Below are positions 290-14,169 of a DNA stretch of 24,455 nucleotides, piece by piece. A model generated the notes under the pieces. It was not told the origin of the DNA. It worked only from the letters and a program-made list of their open reading frames with translations, and did not search any database. The DNA comes from a virus, in IMG/VR virus record IMGVR_UViG_3300023507_000011, positions 1 to 24,455 of that record. One strand, 5' to 3'. Position 1 is the first letter of the stretch, and each line of letters opens with the position of its first letter. Position numbers and translations under genes: made by a program.

Positions 290-764
290 GTGCCCTTTTT
301 GTCTGTCGGCCGATCGGGAAGATCTCGAAGATCAGATCGGACAGGGAAGTTTGCAAAGGCGACAGGCGGCTATGATACTGCAAACTGACCTTGAGACAGT
401 TAACCGGCACATGAGGGACCACCTCGGCGTTGTGCATGTGCAGCCCGTCAAGGAGCCAGTGCCAAAGGAGTTGGGCGAGCTGTTTTCGAAACGCGATATC
501 CTGATGAATAGGATCGAGGCCTTGGCCCAAAGAGTCGACGCTTTTGAGAAGGGTGGCGTGGACTTTGAAAAGTCGACCACGGATCAAATTGTCTCAATGA
601 CTGAGGCGATCCGTAAGCTGGTTGTGGACTTGGCAAAGATTCAGGGTGAACTTAAGGAGGAGCAGCATATCACGTTCCAGTACTTCACGAACCTGAAGAC
701 CTTTGTGTTTAATAGCTTGTGCCCGGAGTGTAGGGCAAATCTCGAGAGGGAACTATGCCAATAG
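282..764 (+). CDS. Probable terminase small subunit (zinc-binding)
   Basis: A 160-residue soluble protein directly before the large terminase and overlapping it by 10 bp, the usual place of the small subunit that recognises viral DNA and regulates the motor. It has CPFC at residues 4-7 and CPEC near residue 148, which could form one zinc site joining the two termini. Residues about 25-47 (RRQAAMIL..DLETVNRHMRDH) read as a helix-turn-helix, and residues 65-135 are strongly helical with coiled-coil character. These features fit a DNA-binding oligomer. No family signature beyond this is recognised, so the call rests mainly on position and architecture. The start overlaps the upstream stop within ATGACTGA. 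Confidence 0.55.
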   Translation: MTECPFCLSADREDLEDQIGQGSLQRRQAAMILQTDLETVNRHMRDHLGVVHVQPVKEPVPKELGELFSKRDILMNRIEALAQRVDAFEKGGVDFEKSTTDQIVSMTEAIRKLVVDLAKIQGELKEEQHITFQYFTNLKTFVFNSLCPECRANLERELCQ

Positions 765-2638
765 ACAGTAAGACGTATCAAAAGGGGAGGGTACGGAGGG
801 AGAATCCGCTTGCTGAGCTGTTGGCGAAGGAGTTTAAGGCGCATAACGATGTGTTGGCTTTTGCGAAGGACATTTTGGAAATTGAGCTTTGGCCTAAGCA
901 AAAAGAGATACTTCGCAAGTTTTATGACCCTACGAAAAATTATCAAGAGCTTGTTTTATGTGCGGGGATGAGGTGCGTTGATAAGGATTCGTTGGTGATG
1001 ACGCCTGATGGCGAGGTTCCTATTAAGAGATTCAGAGGGAAGGTTGAGACGGGGAAGGGCGCACACGACGCCATCCGGATTGGGCCTGAGTGGCGATGGT
1101 GTATTGAGATTAAGACGGAGCATACGTCGTTGATTGCTTCGGCTGATCACAAAGTTCTTACGCCTGATGGATTTGTTAGGGTGGGTCAACTTTCGGAAAA
1201 CGCAAAAATCGCGACGGACGGGGGGTACGATACGCTAATCGAAAAAACCAATGCAGGACTACGGGAATGTTATGACTTGCACGTTCCGGCTGTTGAGCAG
1301 TACATTGTTAACGGCCTAATAACCCACAATTCAAGTAAGACGTTTCTTGCTTCGATAATTTCGACTTATGAACTTTATAAGCTTCTTCAGTTGCAGGACG
1401 TTCACAGGTACTTCGGGCTACCTAAAGGACAAGAGATCTTTCTAATCAACGTTGCAACTTCAGAGAGGCAGGCACGCGATACCGTGTTCGCGCACACTCA
1501 AGCACGCATAGAGAATTCTGAGTGGTTCCAGACGCAGAACTTTAAGCCCTTATACAACGAGTATAGGTTTAAGACTGGGAAGAGTCGTTCAGGTGATATT
1601 GTCATTAGATCAGAACACTCTAATTCAAGTTCTCTTGTCGGCAAAAGTGCTTTGCTCGTTATCTTCGACGAGTTGGCAAGATTCGTGGATACAAAGGGCA
1701 AGAGCTCTGCTGAGGCTGTTTACGATTCGCTATCACGTGCAACAAAGACGTTTGGACGGTACGGTAAGGTAGTGTCTATTTCGTCACCAATGTACGTGGA
1801 CGATTATATTATGAAGCTGTTGAGGTTGGCCAAAAGACCAGAGTTGCGACATCGTATGTTAGCGTTTCAGCTCGCAACGTGGGAGATTAACCCGAACATC
1901 ACGAGAGAAGACCTTGATGCTGACTTCATTAAGAATCCTGAGGCGGCAATGAGAGACTTCGGCGCTGTACCTTCACTTAGCATCGAGACATTCTTCAAAG
2001 AAGACTGGAAGATTGACCTGTGTCGCAATGAGACTATTGGTAATCCTCTTATCGAGTCAAACGGTAACTTGTACCTAAGAGACGATTGGACGCCACGGCA
2101 GGACTTCGATTACTACTTTGCAGGGGATCCGGCGTACAAAGGAGACGGTTTTGGAGTTGCGCTTGGACATAAAGACGATAATGGCGTGAAAATAATTGAT
2201 TTTGCAGGTCGCTTTCTGCCTCAACGTAAGGAGGGGAGACTTGAGATTGACGTCTTGAATGTGAGTCAGTTTATCATTGACACGATCACGAGAGCGCCTG
2301 TGAAGAAAGTTACATTTGACACTTGGAATTATCCTGAAACTGTTAAGAAGATACGTCTGCACGGTGTAGAGGTCGAGCAACACACAGTTAAGAAGAAAGA
2401 TTACGACGTGCTCAAGGAGCACATTTACAGTGAACCTCCGCTAATTAACTGGTACCCAAATGAAGTACTAGAGGAGGAGTTGAAATCCCTCGAAGCGTTT
2501 TCGAACAACAGGATTGATCACCCCAGAAACGGATCTAAGGACGTATCTGACGCTGTTGCGAATTGCTTGCGTTTAATGATGGAGAGTGAAAATGAAATTG
2601 CTGAGCCACCCGTTTGGTTTGTTTCGAAACGAGCCTAG
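755..2638 (+). CDS. terL: Terminase large subunit (packaging ATPase/nuclease), intein-containing
   Basis: A 627-aa precursor giving a mature protein of about 508 aa after splicing. It is the ATP-driven motor that translocates viral DNA into the procapsid and cuts concatemers. The P-loop is split by an intein: CAGMR (69-73) joins SSKT (193-196) to give AGMRSSKT. Walker B is LVIFDE (301-306, D305 E306) and the coupling motif is SISSP (341-345). The RNase H-like nuclease domain has acidic residues in AGDP (D458), FDTW (D522) and SKDVSDA (D596/D599). Start is the ATG after GAGAGG, overlapping the small subunit gene. The arrangement ATPase then nuclease and the mature size match the family. Function must depend on intein removal, since the ATP site is otherwise broken. 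Confidence 0.96.
   Translation: MPIDSKTYQKGRVRRENPLAELLAKEFKAHNDVLAFAKDILEIELWPKQKEILRKFYDPTKNYQELVLCAGMRCVDKDSLVMTPDGEVPIKRFRGKVETGKGAHDAIRIGPEWRWCIEIKTEHTSLIASADHKVLTPDGFVRVGQLSENAKIATDGGYDTLIEKTNAGLRECYDLHVPAVEQYIVNGLITHNSSKTFLASIISTYELYKLLQLQDVHRYFGLPKGQEIFLINVATSERQARDTVFAHTQARIENSEWFQTQNFKPLYNEYRFKTGKSRSGDIVIRSEHSNSSSLVGKSALLVIFDELARFVDTKGKSSAEAVYDSLSRATKTFGRYGKVVSISSPMYVDDYIMKLLRLAKRPELRHRMLAFQLATWEINPNITREDLDADFIKNPEAAMRDFGAVPSLSIETFFKEDWKIDLCRNETIGNPLIESNGNLYLRDDWTPRQDFDYYFAGDPAYKGDGFGVALGHKDDNGVKIIDFAGRFLPQRKEGRLEIDVLNVSQFIIDTITRAPVKKVTFDTWNYPETVKKIRLHGVEVEQHTVKKKDYDVLKEHIYSEPPLINWYPNEVLEEELKSLEAFSNNRIDHPRNGSKDVSDAVANCLRLMMESENEIAEPPVWFVSKRA
974..1330 (+). mobile_element. Mini-intein (119 aa) in the TerL P-loop
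   Basis: In-frame insertion of residues 74-192 of the TerL precursor. It begins with Cys74 (block A, CVDKDSLVMTPDG), has a block B with ASADHKVLT (His132), a block F YDLHVP..EQYIVNG, and ends in block G NGLITHN with the His-Asn pair. The +1 extein residue is Ser193. No LAGLIDADG or HNH endonuclease domain is present, so it is a splicing-only mini-intein, near the lower end of natural intein sizes. The insertion point lies inside the Walker A motif, a favoured type of intein site. Confidence 0.93.
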
Positions 2639-2686: not shown

Positions 2687-4954
2687 GTGAGTGAATTGGT
2701 AGGTTTTAGAGATGCGCTCGGACACACAATCAGAACGACTTTAAGATTAGATGACACTGGACGGCCTTTTGCCATTTTTACAGGATTTCAACTTGAAACG
2801 ATAGATCAAAGCTATACTCTTAAGGATTATCGTGAAGAATTTAGAAACAACGCTTTGGTTAAGCAATCAGTCTTGCTATTAGCAACAATGGCAATAAAAG
2901 GTGGGTTTGAGACGCAAGTACTGCCATACGACCCAAAAGACGATCCGGCCGAATTTTCGGACTTAAAGAGAAAGATCGACCGCAATAACAAGAAGATGAA
3001 TTTAGATTTATCACTGTTCATTGGGGAGGTAAAACGTAGAATTTACGGTTATTGTGGTTTTGAAATAGTGCCGTCTCAGAAGACCAAATTTTTTGATCTT
3101 TTGCCTCTTAGTTCCGAATTACTAGAACCTGATATAGCAGAAGATTACACATTGAAAGGTTGGAAGTACCAGTATGCTAAGGACGGATACTACAAACCTG
3201 ATCAGATATTTCATCTTCATAATACTCCTTTGGAACGAGACTACAGGGGTATTAGTGACATCGAACCTATTATGCAGACATTAGCAACACGCCGCAACTT
3301 ATGGTTCGACATCAAAGAAGCCGCAAAGCGCTTGTGGGCTCCCATCCTTATTTGCAAAATGGATACTTCAGGTTTGAAGAAAGCTGATGCGGAAACAGCA
3401 ATGCAGAAGTTCTCTGATGAGCTAAAACCTGGTCGTAATGTTGTTCATAACAGGTCGATTGATGTTCAGGTAGTCAATATCACACCAGATATTGGGGGGC
3501 TACTGCGCGCGATTGAAAAGTGTGATGAGGACATAATGGGGAACTTTTCAATCCCGCGCGCTTTACTTGGGCGCGAAAAGTGCTTTGACAAAGACACTCT
3601 CATTATGGACGCTGAGACGGGGCGACTAGTCACCATCAAAGAAGCTTATAAGACCGTGAAGAAAATCTTTACACTTGATGAAGATGGACAGTTTAAGATC
3701 ACGGATGATTTCGTAATTTTCCCAATGGGCAAAAAGCAATGTGTCAAAGTTACAATGTCTAACGGTCTGGATATAACTTGTTCTCTTGATCACCCCATAC
3801 TCACTTCACGCGGTTGGGTCTGTGCTGAAGACCTATTACCTGATGATTGGGTCTTTGCACCTATCTCGTTGGAACCTGAAAGTCAAGAGTCAATCGATCC
3901 TGACATAGCATGGATGACAGGTTTTCACCTTGCAGATGGTTCATTCAACACGTTCAAGCAACCCAATGGTGAATTAAGTATTAGATTTTCGTTATCGCAA
4001 GTTGACGGACCAGTAAAGGATCACGCTTCATCAATTCTTGATAAATTTGGCATTAATCATTCAAAAACTGAACAAGGATTATTCATTAACGGTTACGCCG
4101 CAAACAAATTTTATGATGTATTTCCTGTAAGTCTTTGTAAGGCGAAAGACAAGACAATTCCTGATGAGGTTTTTGGTTGGGACGATAATGGAAAGAATGC
4201 TTTTCTGGAAGGCTTTGAAGCAGGAGATGGTCATCGCCAATCAACCAGATTAACACTTTCGACTACATCGAGGAAGTTAGCTGAAGGTTTATATTGGCTT
4301 TTAATGTCGATGGGTAGACATGCAGGTATTTACAAGCATTCCGAGCGCATGTATAACGTTACAGAATATCGCTTCAAGAACAAACCGACACTCACTCATG
4401 TGCCAATCGAGTTGAGTTCACGATCTGCCAAATACCTGAACCAAGCGCTAAAACGTCACCAGGTTAGGGTGCAAAAATTACCTGGAGAATTTGAACATGT
4501 TAAGTTCTTGAAGGTAAAGAGCATCGATTACGTTGGAGAGCGTGAAGTCTGGGATCTAACAGTTAAGGGAACTCACAACGTTGTTGCTAATGGAATCGTG
4601 GCCTCTAACACGACCAACCGTGCAACGTTGGAGTACTCCATTAAAACAGTCTATGATGTGTCGGTAAAAGGAGCACAACAGTACTTAAAACGTGAGGTTG
4701 AATCTCAAATCTATACACCTCAAGTAAGAGAGGAAGGGTTGGAAGATCAAGTGCGCGTTTTGCATAAGTGGAATCCTCTTACTGTTGTGGATATGATTGC
4801 ACTTGTGAAACCCATTGTTGAGTTGATCAAGGTTAATGCCATTGATGTACCCAAAGCATGGGATCTTCTGGGACTGGACGTAACAGAACTTAAAAGTAAA
4901 AAGAAATTTGTAACACAATCAAAGATAGGCGAGTGGATTGAGGAAAATGAATAA
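2687..4954 (+). CDS. Portal protein, intein-containing
   Basis: A 755-aa precursor giving about 412 aa after splicing. The portal forms the dodecameric ring at one capsid vertex through which DNA passes and to which the neck attaches. Portal-like features are the early region LVKQSVLLLATMAIKGGF (57-74), a long helical and beta body, and FSIPRALLGREK (287-298) joined after splicing to TTNRATLEYSI, the conserved portal segment with NRAT. The C-terminus is acidic and helical. It follows terL as expected. The annotated start is GTG 2687 after GGGGAG. A TTG at 2696, five bases after GAGGTGA, is an equally good start and would remove three residues. The stop overlaps the next gene. Confidence 0.9.
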   Translation: MSELVGFRDALGHTIRTTLRLDDTGRPFAIFTGFQLETIDQSYTLKDYREEFRNNALVKQSVLLLATMAIKGGFETQVLPYDPKDDPAEFSDLKRKIDRNNKKMNLDLSLFIGEVKRRIYGYCGFEIVPSQKTKFFDLLPLSSELLEPDIAEDYTLKGWKYQYAKDGYYKPDQIFHLHNTPLERDYRGISDIEPIMQTLATRRNLWFDIKEAAKRLWAPILICKMDTSGLKKADAETAMQKFSDELKPGRNVVHNRSIDVQVVNITPDIGGLLRAIEKCDEDIMGNFSIPRALLGREKCFDKDTLIMDAETGRLVTIKEAYKTVKKIFTLDEDGQFKITDDFVIFPMGKKQCVKVTMSNGLDITCSLDHPILTSRGWVCAEDLLPDDWVFAPISLEPESQESIDPDIAWMTGFHLADGSFNTFKQPNGELSIRFSLSQVDGPVKDHASSILDKFGINHSKTEQGLFINGYAANKFYDVFPVSLCKAKDKTIPDEVFGWDDNGKNAFLEGFEAGDGHRQSTRLTLSTTSRKLAEGLYWLLMSMGRHAGIYKHSERMYNVTEYRFKNKPTLTHVPIELSSRSAKYLNQALKRHQVRVQKLPGEFEHVKFLKVKSIDYVGEREVWDLTVKGTHNVVANGIVASNTTNRATLEYSIKTVYDVSVKGAQQYLKREVESQIYTPQVREEGLEDQVRVLHKWNPLTVVDMIALVKPIVELIKVNAIDVPKAWDLLGLDVTELKSKKKFVTQSKIGEWIEENE
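3581..4609 (+). mobile_element. Intein (343 aa) with LAGLIDADG endonuclease in the portal
   Basis: Residues 299-641 of the portal precursor. Block A starts at Cys299 (CFDKDTLIMD), block B is CSLDHPILTSRGW (His369), and block F is EVWDLTVKGTHNVVANG. Block G ends VASN and the +1 residue is Thr642. Two dodecapeptide motifs, MTGFHLADGSF (410-420) and FLEGFEAGDGHR (506-517), mark a two-motif LAGLIDADG homing endonuclease between the splicing halves. The residue before the terminal Asn is Ser rather than the usual His. Both catalytic acidic residues of the endonuclease (LADG, AGDG) appear present, so it may still be mobile. Confidence 0.93.
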
Positions 4955-6224
4955 GTCAAAAAATCCTGCTGATATGGATAAGGATGAGTTGCTAAGAACT
5001 CATGAGGAATTGCATCGCGCGTTCAAAAAAGGTCTTGACGGCTGGACTAAAGAAGACTTTATCAATTATCACATTCTGGTTCTTGAAGCCATCAGAAGGA
5101 GAGGGTTTCAGCACACCCCAGCGGATGAGCTTGACGAGCTAACAATTAAGGCCAAACGGAAGACTTTTGAAGCCTCGTTGGGCATTGTTAAGATGAGCGC
5201 TGTTAAGGAAGACTTCTTCAAAGAATGGAATCCTGACATGGCATATATGGTTGGCTTCATTATGGCTGACGCCACTATCTTTGTAGCACCAGAAAAGTAT
5301 CAGTGGAGATTGTCCTTCGAAATAGGTCCAAAAGATCTTGATTTGCTTAAATGGTTTAAGGAAAAACTTCAATATGAAGGCGTGATAAGAAAGGTCGCCG
5401 ACAAAACTTCTCGGACGATGCAGATCAATAACAAAACCCTGGTGCAAGGACTTCTCGAAACTGGTTTGAAACCAGATAAGACCGGATTCCCGAAGGTACC
5501 GGACAATCTCATAGTTCATGCGGCACGCGGTTATTTTGATGCGAATGGTTCAGCGTGGACAGTTGGTAATTCATTGATGCTAAGATTTTCCGGTCGCTCC
5601 CCAGTTATTGAAAAATGGCAAAAGATCATAGAGGAAAAGACTGGTGTGAAGCACCGCAAAATCATCAGAACGGCTGGTACCAACATAATTGCTTTTTCCG
5701 GACAGGATGCATTAAAGGTTGCCGAATGGCTTTATAGCGAGGGTGGACATTATCTTGAAAGGAAAAAGGCCCCTTACGACACTGTGGTTACAAGAACTAA
5801 GCAATCAGAGGACCTTGCACCAATTGGACCATCTGGAATAGAGGAGGGTCCTGAAATCAAGTTGGAAGACATACTGCCTTACTTCAAGTCGTTCAAAATG
5901 AGCAAGCCTTTTATCTTTTTGACTGGTGGTTTGGTAAACAATATGAAGACGAAGGGGGATATTGATATACTTATCAGGTGCAGCGAAAATGACTCTTACG
6001 CTAAAGGGATTGTGTTCCGAATAGTACGAATGTTTCCCGAAGACCTGAGAGGTAGGTTGCATTTTATATTTGATGATTCCGGCGAAATGGACGGACATGG
6101 ACCGTTTACGAGTTACGTGCCTCTTTACGAATTCGTAATTGAGGCAAATCCTGGTGAACGGGTTGAAATGAGTGAAGGGCTAATTAAGGTTGGACCCGGG
6201 AGGTATAAAGTTGGAACCAAATAA
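4947..6224 (+). CDS. LAGLIDADG endonuclease fused to a minimal nucleotidyltransferase
   Basis: 425 aa from the ATG at 4947, which follows GAGG and overlaps the portal stop; a TTG at 4938 would add three residues. Three parts are visible. Residues about 12-60 form a helical hairpin (ELLRTHEELHRAF ... EAIRRRGFQH) that recurs in the large polyprotein downstream. Residues about 85-270 are a homing endonuclease with YMVGFIMADAT and ARGYFDANGSAW as dodecapeptide motifs. Residues about 300-400 contain FLTGGLVN..KTKGDIDILI, the GG...DxD signature of the nucleotidyltransferase (pol beta-like) superfamily. No intein blocks flank the endonuclease, so it is a fusion rather than an intein. The substrate of the nucleotidyltransferase is unknown. 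The endonuclease probably invaded a helical-NTase gene. Confidence 0.75.
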   Translation: MNKSKNPADMDKDELLRTHEELHRAFKKGLDGWTKEDFINYHILVLEAIRRRGFQHTPADELDELTIKAKRKTFEASLGIVKMSAVKEDFFKEWNPDMAYMVGFIMADATIFVAPEKYQWRLSFEIGPKDLDLLKWFKEKLQYEGVIRKVADKTSRTMQINNKTLVQGLLETGLKPDKTGFPKVPDNLIVHAARGYFDANGSAWTVGNSLMLRFSGRSPVIEKWQKIIEEKTGVKHRKIIRTAGTNIIAFSGQDALKVAEWLYSEGGHYLERKKAPYDTVVTRTKQSEDLAPIGPSGIEEGPEIKLEDILPYFKSFKMSKPFIFLTGGLVNNMKTKGDIDILIRCSENDSYAKGIVFRIVRMFPEDLRGRLHFIFDDSGEMDGHGPFTSYVPLYEFVIEANPGERVEMSEGLIKVGPGRYKVGTK

Positions 6225-7176
6225 ATTTCCTGCCAAGTTTACTAATGACCACGTGTCGTTATACCTAGTTGGAGCGGAAAAGAGACCGATAGCAGATCAC
6301 GTCGAAGGGGTCATGCTAAATGCTGTAACGGTCAACCCCAATCACGAATGGTTCCAGGAATACAAAGGTATAAAGGTGATGGATAATGGTATATTTGGCG
6401 GTACCGTGCTTTCTGTTGCCGAGCTCGCTGAGAAAGCCCGTCAGGTGCAACCAGACATTGTTGTTGGTCCTGATGTGCTTTATGATGATGATATCCACAT
6501 AAAATCAGTCGAAAGACAGAAAAGGTTTATGAAGGAAAAGTTGCCTGAGAGGACTAAAGTTCAATTGGTGCCACAAGGCAACACGACGGAACACTATGAA
6601 TGGTGCATTTCTCAAATCGTTAAGATGAACCCGGACTATATTGGATTAGGTCGCATGTCAATGAAACTCGCAGGTTATCCGCTAAAAGGTCACTTTCAAA
6701 GAGTGTATGCGCTTAACAGGTTTGAAGAGTTAGGATTGCTTGATGAGATCAGAGATAATGCGATCAAGATCCACGCTCTCGGAATTTCAAAACCATCCGA
6801 GTTCAAGTATCTTAATTACTTCAGCGTATCGTGCGCAGACTCAATGTCATATATTTATTCGTCAATTTATAATCAGATTGTTTGGCCAGGTGATAATTAT
6901 GAAGGCCAAACAAAGATAAATAAGGACGGTTCGATCGTTAGAAAGAAAACAGATACCGACGAAGTGTACGAAGCTAAGCAACGCTTCTTTGCAACTTATC
7001 CAGCAAGCGGTCCTCTTGATGAAAGGCAATTGTGGATTATTAAGAATGTATGGTTGCCTTGCAGAGCTGAGCTTGCAACTAAAAATCACATACGAGAGAT
7101 TGTTGAGGGCGTCGATTTCGAGAAAGAAAAGGACGATACGCCGATATTAGAGAAGCCAAATGGTAAGAAAGCTTAG
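6211..7176 (+). CDS. dpdA: DpdA/TGT-like 7-deazaguanine transglycosylase
   Basis: 321 aa from TTG 6211, chosen because GGGAGGT ends six bases upstream; an in-frame TTG at 6190 lacks such a site. The sequence reads as a TIM barrel of the tRNA-guanine transglycosylase/DpdA superfamily: KVMDNGIFGG (D58, likely catalytic pocket), IVVGPDVLYDD (D88), LVPQGN (119-124), YIGLGRMS, IHALGIS (187-193) and SCADSMSY with D210 in the position expected for the nucleophile. DpdA family proteins exchange guanine in DNA for preQ0 or derivatives. TGT relatives act on tRNA. The viral context, adjacent phosphoribosyltransferase and DUF6884-like domains favour DNA. No preQ0 synthesis genes are in the window, so the base would come from the host or from genes elsewhere. 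The symbol is tentative. Confidence 0.7.
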   Translation: MEPNKFPAKFTNDHVSLYLVGAEKRPIADHVEGVMLNAVTVNPNHEWFQEYKGIKVMDNGIFGGTVLSVAELAEKARQVQPDIVVGPDVLYDDDIHIKSVERQKRFMKEKLPERTKVQLVPQGNTTEHYEWCISQIVKMNPDYIGLGRMSMKLAGYPLKGHFQRVYALNRFEELGLLDEIRDNAIKIHALGISKPSEFKYLNYFSVSCADSMSYIYSSIYNQIVWPGDNYEGQTKINKDGSIVRKKTDTDEVYEAKQRFFATYPASGPLDERQLWIIKNVWLPCRAELATKNHIREIVEGVDFEKEKDDTPILEKPNGKKA

Positions 7177-7738
7177 TTGGGATGAAATTGAAGGTTACGT
7201 AAACAAGCTAGCCTTCATGATGAGAGGAAATCTGCCAGAGGACGCTGTTCTCATTGCTATTATGAGAGGCGGTGCTATCCCGATGGTACTTCTGTCTGAC
7301 AAGCTAGGCATTAAAGAAACAGGCGCAGTATGGATTGAGAGCTATGATGGCGTGACCAAAGGTGAAATCCGCTTTAAAGGAATGACAAGCTTTGATGGTA
7401 CTCCTGTATTTATTGATGATATAGCGGATACGGGGGCTACGATAGAGTACGTTCAAAAGGTTTTGGGCGGTTTCACAGCTATACTCGTTAAGAGACCGAG
7501 CTGTGCGATTCAACCAGATTTTTGCGCATTAGAAATTAATGATTGGGTTGAGTTTCCGTGGTGCAGAAAGGATTCTGAAGGTAAAGGAGAACTCATTTGC
7601 GAGTTCGTCGAAGATTGCAAGTATCCTTGGAAGAATAAAGATAGATGTAATAATTCACTTCGCAGTTTTAACTGTTCTATTTATGAGAAATTTGCCCTGA
7701 AAGCAGGTCGTGAAATAATCATAACGAAGGTGAAATGA
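7160..7738 (+). CDS. Type I purine phosphoribosyltransferase-like protein with Cys-rich tail
   Basis: 192 aa overlapping the transglycosylase gene by 17 bp. VFIDDIADTGAT (83-94) is the PRPP-binding loop of type I phosphoribosyltransferases. IAIMRGGAIP (32-41) is the PPi loop, and NDWVEFPW (127-134) matches the C-terminal segment of xanthine/guanine phosphoribosyltransferases. The family joins a purine base to PRPP. Next to a base-exchange enzyme it could salvage the released guanine or activate a deazapurine, which is inference. After the core, about 58 residues carry Cys at 135, 147, 153, 163 and 172, which may bind zinc or a cluster and is not usual for this family. The stop overlaps the next start as ATGA. 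Confidence 0.8.
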   Translation: MVRKLSWDEIEGYVNKLAFMMRGNLPEDAVLIAIMRGGAIPMVLLSDKLGIKETGAVWIESYDGVTKGEIRFKGMTSFDGTPVFIDDIADTGATIEYVQKVLGGFTAILVKRPSCAIQPDFCALEINDWVEFPWCRKDSEGKGELICEFVEDCKYPWKNKDRCNNSLRSFNCSIYEKFALKAGREIIITKVK

Positions 7739-10700
7739 TGGACGTAGCAGTTTTAATAGTATCCGCACCCAAATTCAATAAGCCTGAAGAAGGGACCCCG
7801 TCCGAGCTTTGGGGTTATTCCTCCAAGGTGATGGGATTCATTTCAGTTTGTGAGGAGAACAATATTCCGTGGGTTTTGATCGATTATAAACACGGCATAA
7901 TTAAGCCTGATCAAAAACTAAAGAACTACTCCAATCCTGAAGCAGAGATTACTCTTCGTGAGTGGCAAAAAATGATTGTTGAGCAGGCTGCAGATCTAGG
8001 TTTGGTCTTTCTTAACGGGGACGGGGGTATAGGAGATCTTAAGAAAAATGTGACTGTTGCCCATGATCACGACGAACTAGTCCAGTTCTTCAAAAACGGA
8101 GAACAGCTTAGTGATAAGAAGTATCCTTTTGCCAAAGAAGGTGCACAGGTTGGTGGCAAGAAAAGAGTTGCAGCCACTTTTTGTGCTGGTTCCAAAGTCG
8201 CTTTGGATGAGGGCACTCCTAAAGAGCTTTGGGCCTCTGCTTCACCCCGCATAGGGAAATTTATTGAACATTGTGAGCGCAACAACATCGATTATGTTAT
8301 ACTGTCATATAAGTACGGTGTTGTTGACAAGAACGAAGTGATCGATAATTACGATATCGGAAGAAGTCAACTCGATATGGATGAGTGGAAACGTCTAGTT
8401 GAATCACGTGCGACAGAACTCGGAATTAAGGAGATTATAGCTTTTGGAATGCTAGCCAAGAATAGTCCTGAGATTTCAAGCACGTTGGAAAATCTAGACG
8501 GTGTTACGCTGGTGTGGGCTGACTCATATGATGAGATCACAGAGTTCTTCTATAAAGACACAACCTTAGACGACTTCGCAAAGCAGAAGAGGAAAACAGA
8601 CGAGAAGGAACAGGAAAAGAAAGACTCATTAAAACTCTCCCCTCACACAGAAGGCACTAAAGCAGCTCTCATTGCGGATGTTGACTCTTACGATCCTGCG
8701 GATGTTAGTGATGAAGTGTTGAGGAATGATCACGCTATTGTTCATGCGTGGTGGGCTACTCTTCTTGCAGGTAAGGAGTTCAAATATACCAAAGAGCAAG
8801 TCAAGCATCTTCATGACTCCATAGCTAAAGAGATGGTTGCTAGAGGTATGGAACACAACTCACCTTTGGCAAATCTTCCTAACGTTAAACAGTTGCAGGA
8901 GATGCCTGAAATCGTGAAGACGTTGGCGTTAGATGAGCTTCAAGGTCTCGCTAAGGTCTTTGAAGAGTTAGGTGCTGACAATTCGATAATAATTAATGAA
9001 TTAAACAGAAGAGGAGGTGAAACAAGTGCCCAGGTACAAGACAGCAGAGGGAGTAGATTGGAGCTCGATTCAGGACAATCAAACTCCGACGTGCGCAGCG
9101 ACGACGAAGGCGGGGACGCCTTGCAAACTGAAGGCGCGACCAGGAAGCAAGTTCTGCGCGATCCATCAGTAGAAGCCAAAAAGAGTTTAGAGGAAGACAC
9201 GGTAGTGCCATCGCGCTTCTTCTATCCTCTTAAAGGTATTGTGGGATACCGCCGCACCGAGAGATACACACCTGAAGGAGTTAAGTCCTTCTTTAAGGAA
9301 ACAGATTACCCACTTATAGTTCAAAAGAAATACGATGGGGCCCGTCACATCATCTGGAAAGACAGTGACAAGGTCACTATTTTGTCTGATGGTGGGCTCG
9401 ATGTTACTGACAGGCTTCCAACTGTTGTAAAAGAGCTTCAGTCTTTTCCGCATCAGGTGTGCTTGGACACGGAGATCGAGCAGTGGGAAAAAGGAGTTCA
9501 TAACGGTAGAGAAATAGTTTCTGGGTACCTTCGGAGTAAGGACCAACCTGTTAATGATAAAGGAATCCTAGTCAATGTTTTCGATATTCTATACTTCAAC
9601 GATCCTAAGATCAAAAAACACGATCTCAACGGCCAGATAGGTGATTTACATAAACAACCTTATAGCTTGAGGCTTCAGTACCTGGAATTGTGTCCATTTA
9701 GGCAGAGCACTCTTGCCCAACCAGAAAGGAACCTGAGGATGAATTTGGCACCTTCATTTGTAGTTAAGAACGGCTCTGAGCTGGTTAAAGAGTTAAAGAA
9801 GGTCGCGAAAGCACCAGGTTCTGAAGGCGCGATGGTCAAGATGGCATCGTCTGACTACCCACTTGATGGTATGACCAATAAGTGGGTTAAGTACAAAACG
9901 ATGGCGGAGGTCCACGTCGTTGTGCTGAAAAGGATCGAAACGCGGACCAAAGGTGTTTATGTTTATGAGGTAGGTTTGGGTTTTACCAGCAACGATTCTG
10001 TGTTCGAAAACGACGTCAAGGAAGTCAAAGGACAGAGATATTTGTTTGTCGGTAAGACTTTGGCGACCAAGGCTTTTGCTGAACCAGGTGAAATCGCAAC
10101 TATTTCTTTCCACACCCTGTTCTTGTATACAGACAGGAAGTCAGGCGCAATACGCATCAGGCTTTACGAGCCTAGGTGGTATGAGCTAAGGAAGGATCAG
10201 ACAACTCCTGACAACATTAGAGAAGCTATCAATATTGCTGAGGGTGCCAAACTTCTGCAGGAGAAGGAACTAACATTGATGAGATTGAGTGGCGCTGATA
10301 TCGTTGATGACGAGCTTCTCCAAATGAAAGGCATGAAGAGATGGGCGGAACAAGGTGGTTCGCTTAGTGTTTCACTTGATGACGTTTACCTTGAAATACC
10401 GCCTGAAAATAAAGTTTACGAGTTTGTCTTTCAACACGAATATCACGGCAAAAGTGCTCATGGTGATCTGAGACTCGAGTTGCCTGACTACCTAATCGGT
10501 TGGACTTTGAATATTTTGCCTGAGGGTGCGATCAAAGAAGACATAACCACGATTGAACAAGCCAGAAAGATTTCTGAAACTGTTAAGTGGAAAGACTACA
10601 ACCAGGATGAAAAAATTCTTACTGAAAAGAAAGATGCAAAAATACCTAAGGGGTGGTTAAGTGTCGAAGGAGAAAGAGGGGACAGAGTATTCGTCATCTA

Positions 10701-12129
10701 CGACAAAGGAACAATCGAATACGGAGCCCAATTGCCGTACTTCCACGAATACTTCATCAAAGGAAAGAAGTTTAGAGGACGTATTGTATTTAGGATGGTT
10801 CCCAACCTAGATAAGGAACCCGATGACGAAAGGGAATTCCTGTGGATGACGTGGAAACCTAAGGACCAAACACCTTATGTGCTTACAAAGAGATCTATTC
10901 AAAAAGGATACAGAACAGATTTCGGAATTTCTGCCTTGCCAATCGAAGTTAGGAAGAAGATTCCGCGTAAGTACCACTATTGGAATGAGAGAGACGCCGA
11001 TAAACGCTTTGAAGTTCGGAAAGAACTAGTCGAAGCTATTGCGAACGGACTTAAGTTCTCGAAGCTTTATAAGGTGGTTGGTGGAAAACATCAGTGGATT
11101 GATGACGTGGATTACGATGAGGCCAAGTTCATCTATAACGCTGAGCTCGAGGATGGTACTTATAAACTGATACCTGTTAACTTCACACAACAGGGTGACA
11201 TTATGCCTACAGTGTTTGAAGTTAAAGACGGTAAGATAAAGATGGCTACTGCCAAGTTCGTTGTTCAGCACCACTGGTGGAAGGCAGCACGAGTGACGAA
11301 AAGACCTGAAGCTTCTGTTGAGCATTACGATATCAGATTTGATTTTGGTCCTAGCACAAAATCACTCGTGCAGTTCGTTTGTGAGAAGAACCCGCTGGTG
11401 ACCGACAGAACAGTTGCCCTGCGAAAACAAGACAGAAACAAATCGTCGTTTAACGCTGGTAGAGGTAAAGTCCAGCAGATTCGACCAGGCACAGCCTTGA
11501 ACCCAACAAAGGATACTCCTGCGTATATTGAGATCATCGATGAAGGAAAGGCCACAATTCACGTGTCAGAGAATGCTTTGATGAAAGTAGAGTTCTTCGG
11601 TAGCAAACTAAAAGGCTTTTGGACCTTTAGGCAGGTTAACAAAGGGGTTTGGGTTGTTGAAAAAGAGGTCTTATCTACTAACGTGAAACAAGCCATGAAA
11701 GTGGGCGAGAGCATTGAGCACGTTTTGCTTGCTGGTTCGGTTATTTCTTACGAAGAGACGAAAGACGGTTTGCTTGTGAAAGGTGGCGCGATTACACACG
11801 GCACCTGGAACGGGCTTTACTTCCCACCTGATGTTATTGAAGAGTCATACGATCTGTTTCCGGGTGTTAGGATCACACTCGAACATGATCAAAAGAGAAC
11901 TGTGGGTAAATATGTTGCTTCTGAATTTAAAGACCAAATGATTTACCTCTCGGCACTTGCAACTGAGCCCGACGTGATTAAAAAAATCAAGAACGGTGAT
12001 ATTTCCGGATTTTCTATTGACGCCTGGATCTCTGTTGACAGAACCAGGCGGATTGTACTCAGAATTGTTGAGTACAATGATGTGTCATTTGTGAAGAATC
12101 CAGCCTGTTCTATCTGTTTATTGACCTAG
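7735..12129 (+). CDS. Polyprotein: 2x DUF6884-like, DNA ligase, 2x 3'-phosphoesterase-like, prohead protease
   Basis: 1464 aa in one open frame. Residues 1-115 and 145-270 are two DUF6884/YaaA-like domains (WVLIDYKHGIIKPD, YVILSYKYGVVDKN). Residues 325-377 repeat the helical hairpin of the endonuclease-NTase protein. Residues 431-490 are a hydrophilic linker. Residues 525-830 are an ATP-dependent DNA ligase: KYDGAR with Lys532, CLDTEIE (576-582), FDILYF, SEGAMVK (696-702), WVKYK (717-721), then an OB fold with EPRWYELRKDQ. Residues 890-1025 and 1175-1310 resemble the LigD 3'-phosphoesterase (HGDLRLEL at 909-916, HYDIRFDF at 1197-1204). Residues 1333-1464 are an HK97-type prohead protease (LEHD His1384, GFSIDA Ser1427, DVSFVKNPA). 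The protease sits just before scaffold and capsid, as expected. It may cut itself free. Confidence 0.85.
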   Translation: MMDVAVLIVSAPKFNKPEEGTPSELWGYSSKVMGFISVCEENNIPWVLIDYKHGIIKPDQKLKNYSNPEAEITLREWQKMIVEQAADLGLVFLNGDGGIGDLKKNVTVAHDHDELVQFFKNGEQLSDKKYPFAKEGAQVGGKKRVAATFCAGSKVALDEGTPKELWASASPRIGKFIEHCERNNIDYVILSYKYGVVDKNEVIDNYDIGRSQLDMDEWKRLVESRATELGIKEIIAFGMLAKNSPEISSTLENLDGVTLVWADSYDEITEFFYKDTTLDDFAKQKRKTDEKEQEKKDSLKLSPHTEGTKAALIADVDSYDPADVSDEVLRNDHAIVHAWWATLLAGKEFKYTKEQVKHLHDSIAKEMVARGMEHNSPLANLPNVKQLQEMPEIVKTLALDELQGLAKVFEELGADNSIIINELNRRGGETSAQVQDSRGSRLELDSGQSNSDVRSDDEGGDALQTEGATRKQVLRDPSVEAKKSLEEDTVVPSRFFYPLKGIVGYRRTERYTPEGVKSFFKETDYPLIVQKKYDGARHIIWKDSDKVTILSDGGLDVTDRLPTVVKELQSFPHQVCLDTEIEQWEKGVHNGREIVSGYLRSKDQPVNDKGILVNVFDILYFNDPKIKKHDLNGQIGDLHKQPYSLRLQYLELCPFRQSTLAQPERNLRMNLAPSFVVKNGSELVKELKKVAKAPGSEGAMVKMASSDYPLDGMTNKWVKYKTMAEVHVVVLKRIETRTKGVYVYEVGLGFTSNDSVFENDVKEVKGQRYLFVGKTLATKAFAEPGEIATISFHTLFLYTDRKSGAIRIRLYEPRWYELRKDQTTPDNIREAINIAEGAKLLQEKELTLMRLSGADIVDDELLQMKGMKRWAEQGGSLSVSLDDVYLEIPPENKVYEFVFQHEYHGKSAHGDLRLELPDYLIGWTLNILPEGAIKEDITTIEQARKISETVKWKDYNQDEKILTEKKDAKIPKGWLSVEGERGDRVFVIYDKGTIEYGAQLPYFHEYFIKGKKFRGRIVFRMVPNLDKEPDDEREFLWMTWKPKDQTPYVLTKRSIQKGYRTDFGISALPIEVRKKIPRKYHYWNERDADKRFEVRKELVEAIANGLKFSKLYKVVGGKHQWIDDVDYDEAKFIYNAELEDGTYKLIPVNFTQQGDIMPTVFEVKDGKIKMATAKFVVQHHWWKAARVTKRPEASVEHYDIRFDFGPSTKSLVQFVCEKNPLVTDRTVALRKQDRNKSSFNAGRGKVQQIRPGTALNPTKDTPAYIEIIDEGKATIHVSENALMKVEFFGSKLKGFWTFRQVNKGVWVVEKEVLSTNVKQAMKVGESIEHVLLAGSVISYEETKDGLLVKGGAITHGTWNGLYFPPDVIEESYDLFPGVRITLEHDQKRTVGKYVASEFKDQMIYLSALATEPDVIKKIKNGDISGFSIDAWISVDRTRRIVLRIVEYNDVSFVKNPACSICLLT
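9026..9172 (+). CDS. Nested small zinc-finger protein overprinted inside the polyprotein gene
   Basis: A 48-aa frame, shifted +1 relative to the polyprotein, starts at GTG 9026, six bases after the strong Shine-Dalgarno GAGGAGGTGA (9011-9020). It encodes CAATTKAGTPCK then ARPGSKFCAIH: the Cys-x9-Cys ... Cys-x2-His pattern (C23, C33, C44, H47) of small phage and archaeal zinc proteins with CxxTTKxGxPC (DUF5763-like). In the polyprotein frame the same DNA gives a Ser/Asp/Gly/Arg-rich linker with no recognisable fold. The nested frame is therefore likely the older, conserved coding sequence, and the polyprotein has read through it. Function unknown; a nucleic-acid-binding role is plausible. Confidence 0.75.
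   Translation: MPRYKTAEGVDWSSIQDNQTPTCAATTKAGTPCKLKARPGSKFCAIHQ
9205..12129 (+). other. Possible internal translation start giving the ligase-protease half alone
   Basis: GTG 9205 lies in frame with the polyprotein, 33 bp after the nested zinc-finger stop, with AGAGGA at 9189-9194 upstream. Initiation here would give a 974-aa protein (MPSRFFYPLKG...) holding the ligase, phosphoesterase-like and protease domains without the DUF6884-like part. This matches the gene order expected if the two halves were once separate genes with the small zinc-finger gene between them. The full-length frame has no stop, so both products could be made. Confidence 0.35.
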
Positions 12130-12278: not shown

Positions 12279-12878
12279 ATGCCAGATGAAGCTGAAGGAG
12301 ATGTAACGGAGCAGGAACTTCAGGAGAAGACCTATCCGCTACCCGACAGTTCAAGAGTACTGAAAGTAAGTGGCTCTGCAATCGACCACATCCTTATAGT
12401 GCCGAAGGGCGTTAAGGTGGAGAGCAAGTCTATTCCGCAGGATGATTCCAAGGATAAGGAGCTTGCTGAAGCCAAAAAGGAGGTCGAGGAAAAGAGCAAG
12501 GAGTTGGCAGCACTGAAGGAAGAACACAGCAAGCTGTCTGAGCAGTTCGAGCTTCTTCAATCGCGCCTCTCTCAGATCGAGGAGGATAAGAAGGTTGAAC
12601 TTGCGAAATCTATCGTCGAAAGCAGGGTCGAAAAAGGCCTAGTTTCCAAGGACGACGCCGAAGATGAAATTACCAAGCTTTCCAAACTGCCTGAGGAAGC
12701 GCTTGTTGTGATGAAGGAAGACACCGTTAAGCTTGCGGCCAAGATCAGTGAGCCTGAGAAGGGTTTCCCGAAAGCTACGGCTTCCGAGGAACAGATACAG
12801 CTTTCCGAGTATCAGAAGCAGTACAATGAGGAAAGGAAGAAGCTTGGTCTTCCGCCTGTTGACTGGGGGTCTGAATAA
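12279..12878 (+). CDS. Capsid scaffold protein
   Basis: 199 aa, very rich in Lys and Glu. Residues about 60-108 form a long coiled coil (KELAEAKKEVEEKSKELAAL and onward), followed by further helices to about 160. The C-terminus carries QLSEYQKQYNEERKKLGLP. Position between the prohead protease and the capsid genes, high charge and coiled coil are typical of scaffolds, which guide capsid assembly and are degraded by the protease. The N-terminal 45 residues look beta-like and may be a separate small domain. The start follows GGAGG. The stop TAA shares its last A with the next ATG. No sequence family is recognised, so the call is by position and composition. Confidence 0.75.
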   Translation: MPDEAEGDVTEQELQEKTYPLPDSSRVLKVSGSAIDHILIVPKGVKVESKSIPQDDSKDKELAEAKKEVEEKSKELAALKEEHSKLSEQFELLQSRLSQIEEDKKVELAKSIVESRVEKGLVSKDDAEDEITKLSKLPEEALVVMKEDTVKLAAKISEPEKGFPKATASEEQIQLSEYQKQYNEERKKLGLPPVDWGSE

Positions 12879-13333
12879 TGACACAGCTTGCAGGAGATAT
12901 AAACAAAACTTTTGAGTACCTCGTGGTGAAGACAACTTCGAAGACCAATACGGCCGTGACCAGAGGGCAGGTTCTTGCCTTCGACACTGATGGTTTTGCT
13001 CCTTGTTCTGCAGGAGATCAGGGACCGTTTCGTGTTTGCCTAGAAACCAAGGCGGCCGGCGGTGCTGGTGTGCAGACGGAGTTCCCTGCACTTGTATATG
13101 GCGTGGTGTCGGTAACCGCTAATGGTGCTGCAACCAATATCAATGTTGGCGACTACGTTGTTTCTGACGACAATGGGGCTGTAAAGGCCTTTGTGGCGCC
13201 TGACGTTGGAGCTACACCGACCCAAGCATCCATAAATGCGGCACTCCTGGACCTGCTTGAAATAGTAGGACAGGCAAATCAGGCTGCTACCACAGATGGT
13301 GCAGTTATTCAGATCTTCCTTGGAGGTAGGTAA
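12878..13333 (+). CDS. Capsid cement/decoration protein (DUF2190-like)
   Basis: 151 aa, Gly/Ala/Val-rich and predicted nearly all beta. Motifs such as VTRGQVLAFD, GPFRVCLETKAAGG, ALVYGVVSVTA and INVGDYVVSDDNGAVKAF match the pattern of small phage decoration proteins of the DUF2190 type, which sit on the capsid surface and stabilise the shell against internal DNA pressure. It is translated from an ATG overlapping the scaffold stop and ends two bases before the capsid gene, so capsid and cement are made together. Two Cys (about 43 and 53) are present but no metal motif. The exact family is not certain. Confidence 0.7.
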   Translation: MTQLAGDINKTFEYLVVKTTSKTNTAVTRGQVLAFDTDGFAPCSAGDQGPFRVCLETKAAGGAGVQTEFPALVYGVVSVTANGAATNINVGDYVVSDDNGAVKAFVAPDVGATPTQASINAALLDLLEIVGQANQAATTDGAVIQIFLGGR

Positions 13334-13335
13334 AA

Positions 13336-14169
13336 ATGGCCCCTGGAGCAGTATTCGATACAAGCAGAATAGCTGACATCACTACGAGAGTTGTGGTGGA
13401 CGAAGTCCTGGACCTTGCTCAGCCGGATCTCAATCTTCGGGATCTGTGTAAGATCGTAAAGGTTCCCAAGCTGGTTGGTGATATCAGCATCGCAGCCAGG
13501 CTGACCGGACAGGAAAAGGTTTCGGAAGCAGAGTCTGCTGACCTGTCCAACAATGAGTTCAGCAAGATCAGCTTTGACCTATGGAAAAACGTCGTGCATG
13601 TTGCCATCACAGATGAGTCCAAGATGAGGGCTAATATTGATGTGATGCAGATCAGCATGCAGGACGCTGGTAAGGAAATTGCCAGGATGGAAAACAAGCA
13701 GATCGCTGAAGCTCTGGAGGTCAGTGGTGGTATCTCTACTATAGCAGGTACCGACTGGGACGACGATACGAACGATCCTGCAAAGGACATCATGGCCGCT
13801 CAGGGTCAGATCCTAAATGAGAAGAAGGGCTACAAGCCTGACGTGATTGCCATGCATCCGTTGACTTACTCTTCACTAGTCGCAAACGAAAACGTGAAGA
13901 AGTTCATGGAGTATGGTACTATCATAAAGGATGGTGGCTTGCCCAACATTATGGGTCTGAAAACTGTGGTGGATCCGTATCTGACGGATGGTCAGGCTAT
14001 TGTGCTTACCACAAAGGCGCCTGTGTGCGTGCTCGGTATCGGGCCCACTGAAGGTGAAAAAATCAGGGACGGAAGAAGGGGCCTGAACGAGTACGTTATC
14101 AGGCAGTACCTGCAGCCTAAGCTCGTGATCCCAGACGCTGCCAGAATCCTGACAGGTCTGCACGGTTAA
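13336..14169 (+). CDS. Major capsid protein (HK97 fold)
   Basis: 277 aa, a compact HK97-fold size. After a short N-terminal arm the sequence has the elements of this fold: VSEAESADLSNNEFSKISFD (E-loop region, about 62-81), a long spine helix with ISMQDAGKEIARMENKQIAEAL (106-127), and P- and A-domain segments GYKPDVIAMHPLTYSSL and VVDPYL..GQAIVLTTKAPVCVLG. It ends with RRGLNEYVIRQYLQPKLVIPDAARILTG, typical of capsid proteins. It lies directly after scaffold and cement genes, has GGAGGT upstream of its ATG, and is followed by a terminator. The precursor shows no long delta domain, consistent with a separate scaffold. Confidence 0.92.
   Translation: MAPGAVFDTSRIADITTRVVVDEVLDLAQPDLNLRDLCKIVKVPKLVGDISIAARLTGQEKVSEAESADLSNNEFSKISFDLWKNVVHVAITDESKMRANIDVMQISMQDAGKEIARMENKQIAEALEVSGGISTIAGTDWDDDTNDPAKDIMAAQGQILNEKKGYKPDVIAMHPLTYSSLVANENVKKFMEYGTIIKDGGLPNIMGLKTVVDPYLTDGQAIVLTTKAPVCVLGIGPTEGEKIRDGRRGLNEYVIRQYLQPKLVIPDAARILTGLHG

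Follow-up and report, generated by a model that had tools for sequence, protein, structure and literature searches.

HK97-type prohead proteases are normally small stand-alone proteins, or are fused to portal, scaffold or capsid proteins. The locus described here raises the question of why such a protease should share one polypeptide with a DNA ligase and with phosphoesterases (PEs) of the LigD type, and what this set of enzymes would be doing among the head genes of a virus. The window that we have analyzed is an entire virus record of 24,455 bases. Judged from its relatives only, it probably represents a tailed virus with an archaeal (ANME/methanogen-related) host.

A single frame among the head genes

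The original prediction described a fusion at positions 9205-12129, with ligase motifs, two HxDxR motifs and a C-terminal His/Ser protease in the same frame. Pfam, family profiles and Foldseek all confirmed these domains (Table 1), but the span was too short. The open frame actually runs from 7735 to 12129 on the plus strand (1464 aa), and two DUF6884-like domains and a small helical domain at its N-terminal end had been overlooked. The second DUF6884 copy stayed just under the Pfam cut-off (E 9e-7), and the two copies match each other. The GC content by codon position is uniform over all domains of the frame, and no internal start with a well-placed Shine-Dalgarno sequence was found in it. 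The gene is placed between those for the terminase large subunit (TerL) and portal on one side and those for the scaffold and major capsid proteins on the other. The intein within the portal gene was also matched by the models for intein N- and C-termini. No Ku was found among the ORFs scanned in this 24 kb fragment.

Table 1. Features of the window, with their positions and the evidence for each.
Feature	Position	Strand	Evidence
Terminase large subunit (TerL), apparent intein near N-terminus	755..2638	+	phrog_17415 2e-39; Intein_splicing E 0.0016
Portal with LAGLIDADG intein (residues about 299-642)	2687..4954	+	Phage_portal 7e-7; Intein_splicing 1e-15
ORF with helical domain MIDB, LAGLIDADG-type endonuclease region and C-terminal nucleotidyltransferase	4938..6224	+	
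Minimal nucleotidyltransferase domain (GG..N..T.GDID)	5862..6134	+	HMM in 54 loci
TGT-like (queuine tRNA-ribosyltransferase-like) protein	6190..7176	+	phrog_887 E 1.6e-4
Phosphoribosyltransferase	7160..7738	+	Pfam Pribosyltran 5e-8
Whole fusion ORF, 1464 aa: DUF6884-DUF6884-helical-ligase-PE1-PE2-protease	7735..12129	+	Single uninterrupted frame
Two DUF6884-like domains (residues about 1-115 and 141-280)	7735..8574	+	Pfam DUF6884; mutual match of copies
Small helical domain (MIDA), recurrent in module proteins	8707..8856	+	Iterated HMM, 38 loci
ATP-dependent DNA ligase core (nucleotidyl-transfer domain and OB-like part)	9310..10230	+	Pfam; family profile
PE1, LigD 3'-phosphoesterase fold, family-specific PYFHEYF motif	10381..11031	+	Foldseek; profile to 3p43
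PE2, second LigD-PE domain (Q1178, H1180, H1197, D1199, R1201 retained)	11248..11646	+	Family profile; Pfam LigD_N
Predicted flexible linker, PE2 to protease	11668..11736	+	pLDDT <50, model residues 439-459
HK97/S78-type prohead maturation protease (H1384 at 11884-11886; S1427)	11752..12120	+	Family profile; alignment
Coiled-coil protein directly after fusion, candidate scaffold	12279..12878	+	Position and composition only
Head protein	12878..13333	+	phrog_673 2e-7, annotated head scaffolding
HK97-fold major capsid protein	13336..14169	+	phrog_1650 5e-26; Phage_capsid 2e-7

The enzyme domains

The ligase was matched by Pfam DNA_ligase_A_M at residues 516-721 (E 6e-19) and has the features of the ATP-dependent DNA ligase superfamily, namely motifs I (KKYDGAR, K532), III (E580), IV (SEG, E697) and V (KYK, K719 and K721) in a nucleotidyltransferase-OB architecture. 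The motif residues are conserved in 36 to 42 of 43 diverged family members (K532 in 41; E580, E697 and K719 in 42 each). The loss of active residues in close relatives, which would have spoken against the original prediction, is thus not what is seen in the ligase. When a profile built from 33 relatives was compared with the PDB, 43 of the 44 matches were DNA ligases, the remaining one being a capping enzyme (0.007). The best was the archaeal DNA ligase 4eq5 (E 4.6e-30), aligned over the full profile including the OB part, while the LigD ligase 1vs0 was matched more weakly (E 1e-13) and the NCBIfam model for LigD-type ligases gave the window protein only 45 bits against a cut-off of 228. The assignment of window and family to archaeal-type, and not LigD-type, DNA ligases is well supported. 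An RNA ligase identity is disfavoured, with DNA ligases matched across the OB part and not one RNA ligase among the PDB matches of the family profile. The ligase of one relative (contig L024) additionally matches Pfam RNA_ligase (3.6e-7).

Both PE domains have the fold of the LigD 3'-phosphoesterase superfamily. In a structure model of the PE1-PE2-protease part (pLDDT about 90 across the PE domains) the top seven Foldseek matches were LigD PE structures (3p4h, E 1.9e-6, TMt 0.81). The PE2 family profile matched 3p43 at E 1.5e-8 and that of PE1 did so weakly (9e-4), and Pfam LigD_N was found over PE2 in the window protein at 0.005. The HxDxR motifs are H909-D911-R913 in PE1 and H1197-D1199-R1201 in PE2. 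In LigD, His42, His48 and Asp50 bind the metal, whereas Arg52, His84 and Tyr88 bind the phosphate (PMC8656161). The PE1 domains of the family retain equivalents of Gln40, His42, His48, Asp50 and Arg52; in the window E902 replaces His42, with the metal-site residues H909 and D911 and also R913 present. In the alignment with 3p43, the position of His84 is occupied by I970 in the window and by Q or E across the family, and that of Tyr88 by tryptophan in 52/52 members (W974 in the window), while a new, nearly invariant HEY motif appears in the PE1 of the family (1004-1006 in the window). In the PE2 of the window the metal-site residues H1180, H1197 and D1199 are present, and no equivalents of His84 and Tyr88 were seen by motif reading. 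The LigD-type identity originally proposed therefore holds for the fold and most of the metal site, not for the canonical active site. Likewise, some active residues have indeed been lost among relatives: His84 and Tyr88 are replaced, and the middle PE of the layout with three PEs has no HxDxR in 23/23 copies. Since the equivalents of His84 and Tyr88 are missing in both PEs and Glu stands for His42 in the PE1 of the window, PE activity is unproven; catalysis is plausible in window and family, and the cleaning of 3' ends is a hypothesis.

A minimal nucleotidyltransferase had been reported nearby, and we located it at the end of the ORF at 4938-6224, in which a LAGLIDADG-type endonuclease region sits between MIDB and the nucleotidyltransferase. 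An iterated HMM tied this domain to the ligase/PE module in 54 loci. Most relatives have it on one polypeptide with the ligase, so the copy in the window belongs to the same system. The active-site pattern is G-[GS]...DxD, and its G and two D residues do not vary among 53 members. Known members of the class are matched only weakly (NTP_transf_2 in 4/39 members; Foldseek top match the nucleotidyltransferase 2rff, E 0.066), and from its sequence we classify the domain as a putative minimal nucleotidyltransferase of the Pol-beta type.

The C-terminal domain matches the profile of its relatives at E 6e-33, and these in turn match Pfam Peptidase_S78 (4.7e-13), XkdF (1e-7) and also DUF2213. H1384 and S1427 are invariant in the alignment, and the fold family, the catalytic His and Ser and the position of the gene just before the capsid gene are those of HK97-type proteases. 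Its assignment as an HK97-type maturation protease is well supported, with proteolysis and self-cleavage as predicted activities. The protease section of the structure model was built on two sequences and has lower confidence; mixed alignments of protease-only and long proteins were misaligned. As a separate observation, an 872 aa protease ORF in L016 (12660-15275) is matched twice by the protease profile (residues 53-182 and 536-641), and could be either a duplicated or an interrupted protease.

Relatives of the module and their coupling to the protease

A scan of viral contigs with the full window protein as single query retrieved zero relatives, and the family was found through a two-sequence alignment of the window protein with that of ANMV-1, a virus of methane-oxidizing archaea that was the sole annotated phage record matching. 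This way, 56 IMG/VR contigs were retrieved together with three from Methanosarcinales/Methanophagales MAGs. A second contig scan with the PE1 alignment added no contigs. Altogether the ligase-PE module is present in at least 58 contigs (ANMV-1, archaeal MAG contigs and IMG/VR), and additional copies were found in a few genomes of the Methanosarcinales/Methanophagales phylum.

Iterated profiles revealed four layouts: ligase-PE-PE, ligase and PE-PE-PE in adjacent genes, PE-PE-ligase, and a ligase in two ORFs. Further domains appear in some relatives. In 10 contigs (L040, L041, L043, L046, L047, L048, L051, L055, L058 and L016) the ligase polypeptide has an MBL-fold hydrolase with an intact, invariant HxHxDH motif at its N-terminus or close to it, and one contig (L019) adds a PNK-type 3'-phosphatase (PNK3P, DxDGT) and a 2H phosphoesterase with two HxT motifs. 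By their sequences, these enzyme domains all have predicted end-processing or end-sealing activities. The MBL-fold hydrolase is a nuclease candidate.

Several of these genes are interrupted. The ligases in two ORFs are split between motifs IIIa and IV by a stop and restart (L012, L013, L014, L015, L017 and L020), and these contigs form a supported clade, so that a two-piece ligase is possible. An in-frame TAG in L018 (5706-5708) falls exactly on the motif IV glutamate of the ligase, with pyrrolysine or a sequence error as possible readings both here and for the TAG of L004 described below. Inteins or large inserts interrupt the ligase in L048, L055 and L058, and PE1 in L009, L054, L055 and L058.

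Across contigs the module is mostly preceded by portal and terminase genes and followed by those of the maturation protease and the major capsid protein. Among the 55 contigs with informative flanks, the protease is fused at the C-terminus in 15 (the window and 14 others with an XkdF-type domain), follows as a separate gene within 1.6 kb in 28 and at a distance of 3-9 kb in eight, and was not found in four; these are counts of contigs, near-duplicates included, and not independent events. On the PE1 tree, no fewer than four changes are required for the fused state. The fusions comprise two domain orders and two protease subfamilies. The latter are homologous to each other (hhalign probability 97, E 4e-11); a profile from the window protease does not pick up the XkdF subfamily (L031 and 13 more fused contigs). 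Given this recurrence and these portal, protease and capsid flanks, the fusion is a recurring expression of a conserved neighbourhood and not an accident of one contig. Strict coupling is not universal, the distances being about 21 kb in ANMV-1 and 3-9 kb in the eight contigs mentioned. In L004, an in-frame TAG between PE2 and the protease (3218-3220) was considered as a read-through fusion and dropped, as a purine-rich sequence resembling a ribosome binding site and a TTG start are found there.

Comparison with known systems

The closest described protein is AJP62006.1 of ANMV-1 (KP703175), annotated merely as "ATP-dependent DNA ligase," to which the window fusion is 26% identical over 812 aligned positions. 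There nucleotidyltransferase, ligase, PE1 and PE2 are found in one protein directly after the portal. On the other hand, the ANMV-1 protease is a separate gene (27069-28388) at a distance of about 21 kb on the linear record, the PE2 motif is lost and the Arg of PE1 is replaced by Met. The main texts of the ANMV-1 and ANME-1 virome papers contain no mention of a ligase.

Bacterial LigD (POL-PE-LIG) also combines an ATP-dependent DNA ligase, a PE and, as in the relatives found here, a nucleotide-adding domain in one polypeptide. However, the module differs in its domain order, as had been proposed from the start, in having two or three PEs with an altered active site, in its archaeal-type ligase, in a nucleotidyltransferase of the Pol-beta type instead of a primase-type polymerase, in the fusion to a capsid protease and in that no Ku was seen. 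Pfam and NCBIfam scans of the 1464 aa protein detected no primase-type (AEP) polymerase domain. Polymerase type and ligase type exclude an identity with bacterial LigD. The stand-alone LigD-type PEs of archaea (3p43, 3p4h and 5dmp) share the fold and most metal-site residues; they are cellular, single-domain proteins, whereas the viral PEs have no equivalents of His84 and Tyr88 and PE1 adds the HEY motif.

By its kind the module resembles the polyvalent proteins of phages, large multidomain enzymes encoded among late genes and frequently fused to peptidase or structural domains (Iyer et al., 2017; PMC5512222), and it is indeed a multidomain enzyme among late genes. Polyvalent proteins are thought to be packaged and injected, and are scarce in archaea (PMC5512222). 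A word search of the text of that study found neither DNA ligase nor LigD-type PE among their domains. The C-terminal domain is like other HK97-type proteases (S78, XkdF, DUF2213) in its invariant His and Ser and its place before the capsid gene. The mycobacteriophages Corndog and Omega are tailed viruses that apparently use end joining on the ends of their incoming genomes (PMC4351075, PMC7719229), but they do so with a phage Ku and a LigD borrowed from the host, and no virion-linked ligase. In the literature that we searched, most subscription journals being outside it, there is no description of the module or of a prohead protease joined with LigD. The module thus appears to be a late enzyme of the polyvalent kind whose domain content and covalent tie to the protease are new.

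Possible function and alternative explanations

In tailed viruses the prohead protease assembles inside the procapsid together with the scaffold. The reading that we favor, with a probability of about 0.5, is that the frame encodes a polyprotein for healing and sealing DNA ends that is coupled to capsid maturation, goes into the procapsid together with the protease and is delivered along with the genome. The head operon would supply the nucleotidyltransferase, the ligase and two or three PEs, joined in some members by the MBL-fold hydrolase, the PNK-type 3'-phosphatase or the 2H phosphoesterase, either fused to the prohead protease or just upstream of it. The enzyme domains and the protease form one polypeptide in the 15 fused contigs and are neighbours in most others, as expected if a repair module travels into the procapsid with the protease. 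From this point, the protease domain would take the module inside along with itself, proteolytic maturation would release it at the linkers, and it would stay with the packaged DNA and enter the next host. There it could trim, fill and seal nicks, gaps or genome ends before viral gene expression, resulting in repair or circularization. There are precedents for parts of this scheme: multidomain enzymes that are delivered in virions have their genes next to late genes (PMC5512222), the prohead protease of SPN3US cuts head proteins (PMC10052503), and Corndog apparently uses end joining and a Ku of its own to close its genome again (PMC4351075). While the enzyme identities are well supported at the family level, virion delivery is inferred. 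Against delivery, a partner of about 150 kDa per protease copy would be a very large load for the procapsid, unless copy number is low or cleavage early. Besides, as ATP is not expected in a sealed head, the ligase would need to be active prior to packaging or once delivered, unless it is carried pre-adenylylated. The altered PE sites, the middle PEs that have lost HxDxR, the fact that no Ku was seen and the looser coupling in ANMV-1 and in the eight contigs also count against this reading.

The strongest alternative, although in our opinion an unlikely one, is that the module works at the site of packaging, within the producing cell, healing nicks, gaps or branched ends of the replicated concatemer to give the terminase intact DNA to package, and is removed or degraded on maturation, its fusion or adjacency to the protease merely positioning it at the procapsid and portal. 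The gene does lie between portal and maturation protease, ATP is present at that site, no injection step is required and cleavage by prohead proteases usually clears head propeptides (PMC10052503); what remains unexplained by packaging-site action itself is the repeated covalent fusion to a protease working inside the shell. We consider it quite doubtful that the ligase/PE region is mainly structural and hardly or not at all catalytic, serving as a large scaffold- or delta-like domain of the protease or as a DNA-binding organizer of the packaged genome. The PEs that have no His84 and Tyr88, the 23/23 middle PEs without HxDxR and a position like that of scaffold-type fusions would fit such a role, yet the ligase has hardly varied in motifs I, III, IV and V despite deep divergence, the MBL, PNK3P and 2H active-site motifs of relatives are intact, and a separate coiled-coil protein is already a scaffold candidate.

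Repair of RNA instead of DNA, for example of tRNAs that anticodon nucleases of the host have cleaved at an early stage of infection, is a still less probable explanation. We know of no RNA-repair set coupled to a prohead protease. Jumbo phages do have RNA-repair sets of nucleotidyltransferase, ligase and phosphatase (PMC7824862), comparable phage sets combine a ligase, a Pol-beta-type nucleotidyltransferase (RlaP), 2H and a PNK phosphatase, and the 2H and PNK3P of L019 and the RNA_ligase match of L024 recall them. However, the family ligase profile points to DNA ligases, OB part included, and LigD-type PEs are associated with DNA repair (PMC8656161). Finally, an artefact is very improbable, be it an assembly error or a frameshift, as the original prediction had itself foreseen, or a chance joining of ligase and protease genes. 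Searches turned up no second, near-identical copy of the window, but the frame stays open over 1464 codons of uniform composition, the 14 other contigs have the ligase/PE module fused to a prohead protease, and the gene order is conserved in unfused relatives.

Returning to delivery with the genome, the recurring coupling in relatives suggests that viruses of this kind bring along, inside the particle, a DNA-end repair kit of their own. The wider claim that a class of tailed viruses, probably archaeal, has in its virions a complete DNA end-joining machine (nuclease-like, nucleotide-adding, healing and sealing), brought in through covalent fusion to the capsid protease or assembly with it, for host-independent repair or circularization is more tentative, and we lean against it. 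To our knowledge, there is hardly any case of a tailed virus with host-independent DNA repair in its particle. The module bears on how archaeal tailed viruses protect and close their incoming genomes, and the repeated fusion or adjacency to the one enzyme that has to act within the procapsid makes the delivery hypothesis directly testable. If true, the idea of polyvalent proteins would come to include archaeal viruses, equipped with a kit for repairing DNA ends, and a LigD-like set of ligase, phosphoesterase and nucleotide-adding enzymes would have been assembled independently.

Base-exchange-like genes upstream of the module

The region 6190-8574 of the window, with the TGT-like protein, the phosphoribosyltransferase and the two DUF6884 domains, resembles a base-exchange set and is possibly related to DNA modification. 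HMM matches indicate that a TGT-like gene is also present upstream of the module in L018 and L059.
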